Shown here: positions 18,610 to 64,000 of the stretch, one piece after another
Numbering within the stretch: the first letter of the stretch is position 1
Layout of the letters: every line of letters starts with the position of its first letter
Source of the DNA: Bacillota bacterium
GTDB taxonomy: Bacteria > Bacillota > Clostridia > Oscillospirales > Feifaniaceae
Length of the DNA: 64,000 nucleotides
NCBI GenBank assembly: GCA_030705925.1
Contig: JAUZPM010000001.1
Span: forward strand, 1-64,000
Direction: 5' to 3'
Position numbers and translations under genes: made by a program
Notes under the pieces: generated by a model
What the model was told of the DNA's origin: nothing
The model's database searches: none
What the model saw: the letters and a program-made list of their open reading frames with translations, nothing else

Positions 18610-18641
18610 TAAAAAAGCGGCATTTCAAACGAAATACCGCT
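18610..18641 (-). terminator. Terminator at the end of the pyrG transcript
   Basis: Stem AGCGG-x-ATTTC (18616-18626) with GAAAT-x-CCGCT (18631-18641), loop AAAC, followed on the minus strand by TTTTTT. It lies about 45 nt beyond repeat copy A, so that element is transcribed as part of the pyrG 3' UTR. The remaining sequence up to the GHL10-amidase start shows only that gene's ribosome site. Confidence 0.8.
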
Positions 18642-18684
18642 ATAGACTGCCGAAAATTACATATAGTTGATAAGACAAAATTGA

Positions 18685-18825
18685 TGTATCAGATTTTTAA
18701 ACGCGGTCTTCAGGTTACAATTGTAAACGCAAAATGGCTAGTCGTCCCATACCGGGGCACTTTTGCTTACTTCAGAACAGGCGCCCTGCTGTATTTGCAT
18801 ACAGCGACGAGCGCCTGTCCTTTTC
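18685..18825 (-). repeat. Dispersed structured repeat, copy A
   Basis: Minus-strand copy starting 12 nt after the pyrG stop. It shares long blocks with the copies at 31293 and 63935: GAAAAGGACAGGC, GCTCGTCGCTGTATGCA, ATACAGCAGGGCG, CTGAAGTAAGCAAAAGTGCC, GCGTTTACAA. It lacks a 15-bp piece present in the other two, consistent with deletion between two ACAGGC direct repeats. It folds as ACAGGCGC/GCGCCTGT outside GCTGTAT/ATACAGC. Confidence 0.85.
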
Positions 18826-18836
18826 ATGCGTCTTTA

Positions 18837-31066: not shown

Positions 31067-31225
31067 ATGAGAAATATTTTTAGAAAATCAAAAAAACCGA
31101 TAGAGAATCAAAAGACTGCCGCATGGTCAAATATTGAGGAAAGCAAACCAGTTTCTAACGTTGCGGAACCAAACAACATACAGGCAGTAAACGCAAAAGA
31201 ATATGTCGACGAAAACGAAAAATAA
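31067..31225 (+). CDS. Small spore surface protein, CDIF630_02480-like
   Basis: 52 aa, start ATG with AAAGGGG upstream. A basic N-terminus (MRNIFRKSKKP) is followed by NQKTAAWSNIEE, VSNVAEPN and a C-terminal AVNAKEYVDENEK. This pattern (AWSNIE, V-N-AKE-VDxNE) matches, from memory, the short Clostridia spore-surface family named after CDIF630_02480. Its location next to two CotF-type genes supports a sporulation role. The stop overlaps a hairpin (31224-31247). Confidence 0.7.
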   Translation: MRNIFRKSKKPIENQKTAAWSNIEESKPVSNVAEPNNIQAVNAKEYVDENEK

Positions 31226-31247
31226 AACAGGGCGTATTCCCTGTTTT
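31224..31247 (+). terminator. Hairpin at the stop codon of the small spore gene
   Basis: AAAACAGGG (31224-31232) pairs with CCCTGTTTT (31239-31247). The T-run is short, so it is a weak terminator or a 3'-end stabiliser. Confidence 0.6.
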
Positions 31248-31248
31248 A

Positions 31249-31283
31249 CAGCTTATCGAAAAACTATGCTTTCCGATAAGCTG
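31249..31283 (+). other. Second hairpin ahead of repeat copy B
   Basis: CAGCTTATCG (31249-31258) pairs perfectly with CGATAAGCTG (31274-31283) around a 15-nt loop. There is no T-run. It lies just upstream of repeat B. Confidence 0.6.
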
Positions 31284-31292
31284 ACAGACGCT

Positions 31293-31453
31293 CGAAAAGG
31301 ACAGGCAGACGAAGAACAGGCGCTCGTCGCTGTATGCAGATACAGCAGGGCGGCTGCTCTGAAGTAAGCAAAAGTGCCCCGGTACGGGGGCACTCACGCC
31401 ATTTGCGTTTACAAACCTTAACCTTACGATCACGTTTAAAGACCCGGTACTCA
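31293..31453 (+). repeat. Dispersed structured repeat, copy B (longest copy)
   Basis: Plus-strand copy, about 160 bp. It matches copy A over its whole length except for a 15-bp piece, and matches copy C over all of C that is in the window. Two hairpins are visible: ACAGGCGC...GCGGCTGC around GCTGTAT/ATACAGC, and GTGCCCCG/CGGGGGCAC with loop GTA. No reading frame is conserved between copies. The rest of this gene-free stretch (31226-31539) holds the hairpins on each side. Confidence 0.85.
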
Positions 31454-31513
31454 TTTTGCCTTACCACATAAATATAATCGCTTTTGCGGTGCGCGTACTT
31501 TTTCGAACGTCTG

Positions 31514-31538
31514 AAAAACAGGGCAAATGCCCTGTTTT
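31514..31538. terminator. Terminator of nifJ (bidirectional)
   Basis: AAAACAGGGC (31515-31524) pairs with GCCCTGTTTT (31529-31538) around AAAT. It follows the nifJ stop on the minus strand and could also stop rightward transcription coming through repeat B. Confidence 0.8.
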
Positions 31539-48816: not shown

Positions 48817-48836
48817 CCCTAAAATTAAAGGCATTT

Positions 48837-48912
48837 GCTTCCCTACGATAGTCTTGACTAACAGGTTCAAAGGGTCAGGTTTTAACCTTCTCAACCAAAA
48901 TGGTTCCCCCGC
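48837..48912 (-). ncRNA. TPP riboswitch 2 (thiD-proximal aptamer)
   Basis: The THI-box core reads, on the minus strand, GCGGGGGAACC, TTGAGAAGG, ACCTGACCCTTTGAACCTG and CGTAGGGAAGC. These are the pyrimidine- and pyrophosphate-sensing elements of the TPP aptamer. It is followed by its own terminator (48784-48816). The helix between them differs from the other copy at a few positions. Confidence 0.95.
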
Positions 48913-48923
48913 AAACGATATAA

Positions 48924-48959: not shown

Positions 48960-48980
48960 CAAATACCAAAGTATATGACA

Positions 48981-49055
48981 GCTTCCCTACGTTAGTCTTA
49001 ACTAACAGGTTCAAAGGGTCAGGTTTTAACCTTCTCAACCAATCGGTTCCCCCGC
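48981..49055 (-). ncRNA. TPP riboswitch 1 (promoter-proximal aptamer)
   Basis: The same THI-box blocks as the thiD-proximal copy, beginning GCGGGGGAACCGATTGG and ending AACGTAGGGAAGC on the minus strand. It starts 12 nt after the -10 box of the operon promoter and is followed by its own terminator. Confidence 0.95.
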
Positions 49056-49066
49056 GATCTAATTTA

Positions 49067-63904: not shown

Positions 63905-63926
63905 ATACCAGCTTCGGCTGGTATTT
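63903..63926 (+). terminator. Hairpin after motB
   Basis: AAATACCAGC (63903-63912) pairs with GCTGGTATTT (63917-63926) around a TTCG tetraloop. The following T-run is short, so termination may be incomplete. Confidence 0.65.
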
Positions 63927-63934
63927 AAACTTAC

Positions 63935-64000
63935 CGAAAAAGGACACGCAGACGAAGAACAGGCGCTCGTCGCTGTATGCAGATACAGCAGGGCGCTTGT
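63935..64000 (+). repeat. Dispersed structured repeat, copy C (cut by window end)
   Basis: Plus-strand copy starting 31 nt after the motB stop. Its 66 bases match copy B almost exactly, including the 15-bp piece missing from copy A. In the outer stem GCGCTTGT replaces GCGCCTGT, a change that keeps pairing with ACAGGCGC through a G-T pair. Confidence 0.85.

Follow-up and report, generated by a model that had tools for sequence, protein, structure and literature searches.

The dispersed repeat that lies after pyrG, a small gene and motB in the window (here the whole stretch of DNA analysed, 64,000 nt) is very probably a MITE that is moved in trans by a DDE transposase of the IS1182 family, takes the hairpin fold of an intrinsic terminator as its target and duplicates that hairpin on insertion. 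A preliminary description of this DNA had offered two readings, a family of 3′-UTR RNA elements or a non-autonomous intergenic repeat; the second is supported here and can be specified as a terminator-targeting MITE with IS1182-type ends.

Extent and ends of the repeat

When complete, the repeat is about 268 bp long, and it is present in about 20 copies in the 2.25-Mb assembly: the whole-genome search proposed in the preliminary description, run by BLAST with copy B as the query, returned 22 matches at about 20 distinct places. The three similar window copies are all present as first described, on the strands and in the positions given (3′ of pyrG, the small gene and motB) and with the central hairpin, including its G-U change in copy C and its mismatch in copy B. 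The coordinates first quoted, taken as the full repeat, cover its middle only, and the inverted terminal repeats said to be lacking lie outside them, imperfect in sequence, with TCAGCTTGTCGAAAAAC on the left and GTACTTTTTCGACAGTCTGA on the right. No reading frame of note occurs in the copies of this short, multi-copy element, as had been claimed. The window features are as follows:

31224–31247, plus strand: left copy of the terminator hairpin at copy B, AAAACAGGGCGTATTCCCTGTTTT, without a long T-run
31247–31514, plus strand: copy B, a complete MITE of 268 bp with its right end against the terminator
31250–31282, plus strand: left terminal hairpin of copy B, containing the left terminal inverted repeat (sequence reading)
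31315–31358, plus strand: central hairpin of copy B, the one noted in the preliminary description
31515–31538, plus strand: right copy of the terminator hairpin at copy B, AAAACAGGGCAAATGCCCTGTTTT, followed by T-rich sequence
18643–18834, minus strand: copy A, a MITE after pyrG, eroded, with the left terminal hairpin lost and the right part shortened
18610–18641, minus strand: pyrG terminator directly after copy A, hairpin at 18616–18641 plus T-run
63905–63924, plus strand: left copy of the motB terminator hairpin, ATACCAGCTTCGGCTGGTAT
63931–64000 and on to contig position 64157, plus strand: copy C, the start of a MITE after motB, without the left terminal hairpin

Copies B and C have the terminator hairpin of their own gene on each side. 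The two hairpin copies at B are identical in 21 of 24 positions, right versus left, base 31247 being shared by the left hairpin copy, which ends there, and the element, which is taken to begin there; the right copy of the motB hairpin is found just past the window, after contig position 64157. At the start of the MITE, TCAGCTTGTCGAAAAAC folds into the small terminal hairpin, and a second, inner copy of the left-end repeat, CAGACGCTCGAAAAAGGAC, is located near the left end. About half of the copies in this genome have neither the left hairpin nor the left end, a common break falling between AGCTGA and CAGACG, a loss that would fit the deletion of adjacent palindromes. The central part is better conserved (90% versus 76% identity).

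Two further observations concern layout. At one locus (L005, G000:C105) a MITE copy stands immediately after the right end of another, as a tandem pair. Elsewhere in the window, on the minus strand, two tandem TPP riboswitch aptamers are found at 48822–48920 and 48966–49063, 45 bp apart.

Terminator hairpins at the flanks

A hairpin directly follows the MITE in all 19 right flanks examined in this genome, with at least four T within the next eight bases in 18 of them. On the other side, just before the MITE, a left hairpin repeats the right terminator hairpin minus its T-run, and the two match in all eight copies whose left junction survives (L001, which is copy B, L003, L006, which is copy C, L007, L008, L010, L013 and L014); the roughly half of the copies that have no left hairpin are outside this count. 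Flank pairs belonging to the same copy gave alignment scores of 11.5–21.5, while mismatched pairs taken from different copies reached at most 9, so these duplications are not due to chance. Target-site duplications, which the preliminary description took as the sign of a simple mobile element, thus do exist, and they are of an unusual kind, comprising an entire hairpin. In this genome many of the hairpin pairs have drifted apart in sequence, hence the insertions look old.

Related elements in the order and class

No MITE matches were found among 39 relatives, and a search of 393 genomes of the order yielded one convincing distant relative, in G385. The right-end motif, usually followed by a terminator-like hairpin, turned up in 18 of the 147 genomes searched from the order, one of the 18 being the host. 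Two genomes of one genus in the same order, G143 and G026, harbor many MITEs of about 264–389 bp with the same ends. Among their 28 end pairs with flanks, the hairpin is directly duplicated in 25, in many of them without any difference, as with GCAAAATAAGAGGCAGAATGCCTCTTATTTTGC, identical at 33 of 33 positions; of the other three, L243 has a reversed loop, L227 is mismatched and L248 has neither the core nor any duplication. Class-wide, the 18 loci at which both ends were found comprise 15 direct, two reversed and one mismatched case, the ends at the remaining loci not being placed by the search patterns. Taken together, whole-hairpin target-site duplication is seen at 40 direct and three loop-reversed sites, 43 of the 46 MITEs with both ends (45 if L248 is excluded), in addition to the eight of eight testable copies of the present genome.

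In three MITEs (L243, L329 and L339) and in one IS1182 element (L209), one loop is the reverse complement of that in the other copy, and such reversed loops hint that the hairpin is copied, or that one copy converts the other. Complete but different hairpins stand on the two sides of the MITEs L227 and L333 and of three IS1182 elements (L291, L292 and L297); these mismatched sides indicate that recombination or another route also occurs. An IS1182 remnant of the present genome on C13 (L125) likewise has a complete but different hairpin on each side, and all these loci look as if copies had recombined or as if a hairpin had travelled with the element.

A comparison at typA illustrates the insertion: the G143 locus has a MITE with an identical hairpin on either side, while five congeners have a single terminator and no MITE, their terminator sequences differing between species so that none is a clean empty site. 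This bears on whether the repeat could instead be a fixed part of the terminator, such as an attenuator or compound terminator, with an origin at the site itself. In favor of such an origin, the repeat regularly stands after the stop codon and before the terminator, yet we consider it extremely improbable given the inverted-repeat ends, the exact duplication of many unrelated hairpins, the orthologous typA sites without the MITE and the patchy distribution.

Candidate transposases

The ends of the MITE are very similar to those of IS1182 elements in the same order. G041 contains a complete insertion sequence whose ends are TCAGTCTGTCGAAAAAGT and GGTTTCTCGACAGGCTGA; it is flanked on both sides by an exact 28-bp hairpin, GCGGCAGAAAGGAACACCTTTCTGCCGC, and encodes a transposase with Pfam DDE domains that scores 403 bits against the NCBIfam IS1182 cut-off of 270. 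Surveying the order, we found whole-hairpin duplications at six further IS1182 elements, in G116, G163, G039, G020, G154 and G202. Autonomous IS1182 elements (L158/L208 in G041, L295, L300, L302, L317 and L301) share with the MITE their similar terminal inverted repeats, their insertion at terminator hairpins and the duplication of the whole hairpin, and differ from it in encoding a transposase, in a gene some 480 codons long; the folded core of the MITE was absent from the six IS1182 elements searched for it (L208, L209, L293, L295, L302 and L317). Considering both the ends and the type of duplication, we infer that an IS1182 enzyme mobilises the window MITE.

An intact IS1182 transposase gene was not found in this genome, which holds remnants only, nor was one found in G143 and G026 with the single protein query used. 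The remnant on C13 ends in ...GCAGTCTGA, against a terminator. That no intact gene was detected, and that L051 has a similar end motif beside an IS256-like reading frame, would suit a MITE of the same kind served by a transposase other than IS1182. IS256 elements usually duplicate 8–9 bp of target. IS1182 elements of the same order match the MITE in both ends and whole-hairpin duplication, and we regard another enzyme as improbable.

Two particular origins were examined and rejected. The right end of the MITE occurs in one IS3-type element (C2:433), but IS3 elements have TGAAC...GGTTCA ends, enter the loop and make short duplications; in C2:433 a MITE end has merely replaced the IS3 tail. At L130, where an IS256 origin was considered, the end motif is adjoined by the start of an IS1182-type transposase, and by eye the IS256 gene resembles an insertion nested within it.

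Insertion model and published precedent

In our model the target would be a fold with no sequence requirement, namely the hairpin of an intrinsic terminator, probably recognised as an extruded cruciform or as a single strand. The transposase would join the ends of the MITE to the base of the hairpin, at its two opposite feet and on different strands, and repair would then copy the hairpin, giving the order stop codon, hairpin, MITE, hairpin, T-run. A whole hairpin would thereby be rebuilt beside the T-run, leaving the gene with a terminator. The MITE would come to lie in the 3′ untranslated region because the terminator hairpin is its target, and would be transcribed with the gene. Where convergent genes share one two-way terminator each would keep a copy, which would make the insertion nearly harmless.

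Members of the IS1182 family, IS1272 and TnSha1, are known to seek hairpins and terminators (PMC4923244, PMC5678879). Like the MITE, these Staphylococcus elements enter hairpins without sequence preference, often terminators, and in both orientations, and their transposase is of the IS1182 family (PMC5678879, PMC4923244). The window element differs in having no transposase gene, and IS1272 in replacing or partly deleting its target hairpin with no duplication (PMC4923244, PMC5678879); replacement of this type, with the hairpin gone, was not seen here or in the relatives, where the hairpin is duplicated. In the scheme of Wan et al., a second, hypothetical pathway, with duplication of the whole stem-loop after the ends are joined to its 5′ feet, is distinguished from a third in which the loop alone is duplicated (PMC4923244, PMC5678879). 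The insertions described here correspond to the second pathway. Three other IS1182-family loci (L299, L319 and L303) resemble the third, being apparently inserted in hairpin loops with loop duplications of 3–7 bp, identified by eye.

Terminator hairpins are the apparent targets of unrelated elements as well. IS3-family elements with TGAAC...GGTTCA ends in Pseudoflavonifractor (L069–L077) and CCNA10 (L100–L104) apparently enter terminator loops; unlike the MITE, they split the hairpin, make a short duplication and have unrelated ends and transposase. The pneumococcal BOX, RUP and SPRITE repeats, named in PMC10969869, are likewise small, dispersed, intergenic and RNA-foldable, and differ in that the literature consulted describes no terminator-hairpin duplication for them.

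Orientation and neighbouring genes

From the ORF table, 12 of the 21 copies scored in this genome lie in sense after a gene, one is antisense (L014), eight lie between convergent genes and none between divergent ones. The claim that the repeat is always sense thus nearly applies genome-wide (12:1). Of 27 sites in G143 and G026, 18 are convergent, nine follow one gene (four sense and five antisense) and none is divergent; class-wide there are 11 sense and 6 antisense cases, with 0 of 27 divergent. As both orientations occur in relatives, insertion goes both ways. The sense bias of this genome differs from that in G143 and G026 (Fisher p=0.023) and could be due to selection, to chance in a burst or to a lineage-specific bias.

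Such a bias is a point for a functional 3′-UTR RNA family, one retained because its RNA influences the mRNA of the preceding gene or is released from the 3′ UTR as a small RNA, with mobility as no more than its means of spreading. We hold this to be rather unlikely. Against it, the relatives face both ways and the genes upstream of the copies in this genome have no evident common theme; the higher conservation of the central part of the copies speaks in its favor, and further evidence on both sides comes from the folded core.

The folded core

The central hairpin is conserved among the copies of this genome, with no significant covariation, a point against an RNA family. In the relatives, which share a core of several hairpins, covariation is massive, a point in favor of such a family. 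Across 18 distinct cores from G143 and G026, 17 of 36 pairs show two-sided changes, against a shuffle mean of 10.8 with none of 500 shuffles reaching 17, and slid controls gave two to five such pairs. When 391 genomes of the class were searched with a covariance model built from these cores, 26 of them, belonging to 20 genera, proved to have the core, many with several copies. The resulting 44-sequence alignment has two-sided changes in 33 of 36 pairs, a result given by 0 of 500 shuffles, a covariation score of 0.772 versus 0.188 and 97.6% of its cells pairing, with the limitation that, unlike the 18-core alignment, it was fitted to the covariance model, a step that raises the pairing artificially. 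Almost no variation is seen in the internal loop, UCGUCGGCGUAC...GUACGGUAGAG, and the outer stems vary freely.

In the 18-core alignment, in which no RNA model had selected the sequences, G-U outnumbers A-C mismatches by 50 to 7 cells. This excess suggests that the molecule that folds is single-stranded, either RNA or DNA, and counts in favor of an RNA family. Many of the G-U cells reflect shared ancestry, with 10 versus 3 pair columns, making the statistic weaker than the raw count. Covariation may also have a non-selective source in arm-to-arm correction of palindromic DNA. We conclude that what is maintained in the wider family's core is its fold, and this may serve either its own mobilisation or a role as RNA.

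How closely the window copies belong to this wider family is a separate matter. The wider-family model matches one copy of this genome, weakly (L010, 19.7 bits, E=0.03), which also counts against an RNA family, and it matches the G385 MITEs weakly too (24.3 bits, E=0.003). Scanning individual sequences for the core with a custom pattern was uninformative for relatives. The window copies appear tied to the wider family more by ends, layout and insertion mode than by the covariance model.

Likeness to a Streptococcus small RNA

No Rfam family scored above its cut-off for the window loci or the related elements, and a 6S match in the search of relatives proved to be a neighbouring gene. The best match, of a G143 MITE to RF02616 (SSRC8_2, Streptococcus sRNA 8), is full length with E=1e-8 and scores 37.5 bits, below the gathering score of 72; the matched region is L225:379–696. 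RF02616 has in common with the MITE a terminator hairpin on each side, IS1182-like end motifs and a 3′ U-run, and one loop is apparently reversed in its consensus. SSRC8 has been detected as RNA, on Northern blots and with its ends mapped by RACE in S. pyogenes (PMC3675131). This likeness suggests that SSRC8, an annotated small RNA, may be an element of the same kind and that such elements may be transcribed; its detection as RNA is also a point for an RNA family. The first reading of the preliminary description, 3′-UTR RNA elements, thus holds for the location, which the choice of target explains. It is to some degree strengthened by the covariation of relatives and the likeness to SSRC8, and weakened by the mixed orientation of relatives and the lack of significant covariation in the host's own copies.

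Implications

The terminator-targeting MITEs and IS1182 elements described here provide dozens of examples of such duplication (about 18–34 bp), which in published work on the IS1182 family is a hypothetical pathway (PMC4923244, PMC5678879), and with defined ends and targets they make structure-directed transposition testable. Rebuilding of the hairpin is a possible reason why mobile elements can accumulate in 3′ untranslated regions at little cost to the host.

A strongly covarying fold is spread over a bacterial class with no Rfam family above threshold, and this structured core makes the wider family more than an ordinary repeat. We tentatively raise the possibility, which we would not call probable, that it represents a widespread, undescribed class of mobile structured RNA: gene-less, about 250 nt long, using a borrowed IS1182 transposase to enter terminators, transcribed within host mRNAs, with a fold (UCGUCGGCGUAC...GUACGGUAGAG) that acts as RNA and with SSRC8 as a member. 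If so, the fold would serve its own mobilisation or a small-RNA role in the 3′ UTR. The comparison with SSRC8 suggests, more broadly, that some repeats annotated as small RNAs may be mobile elements.
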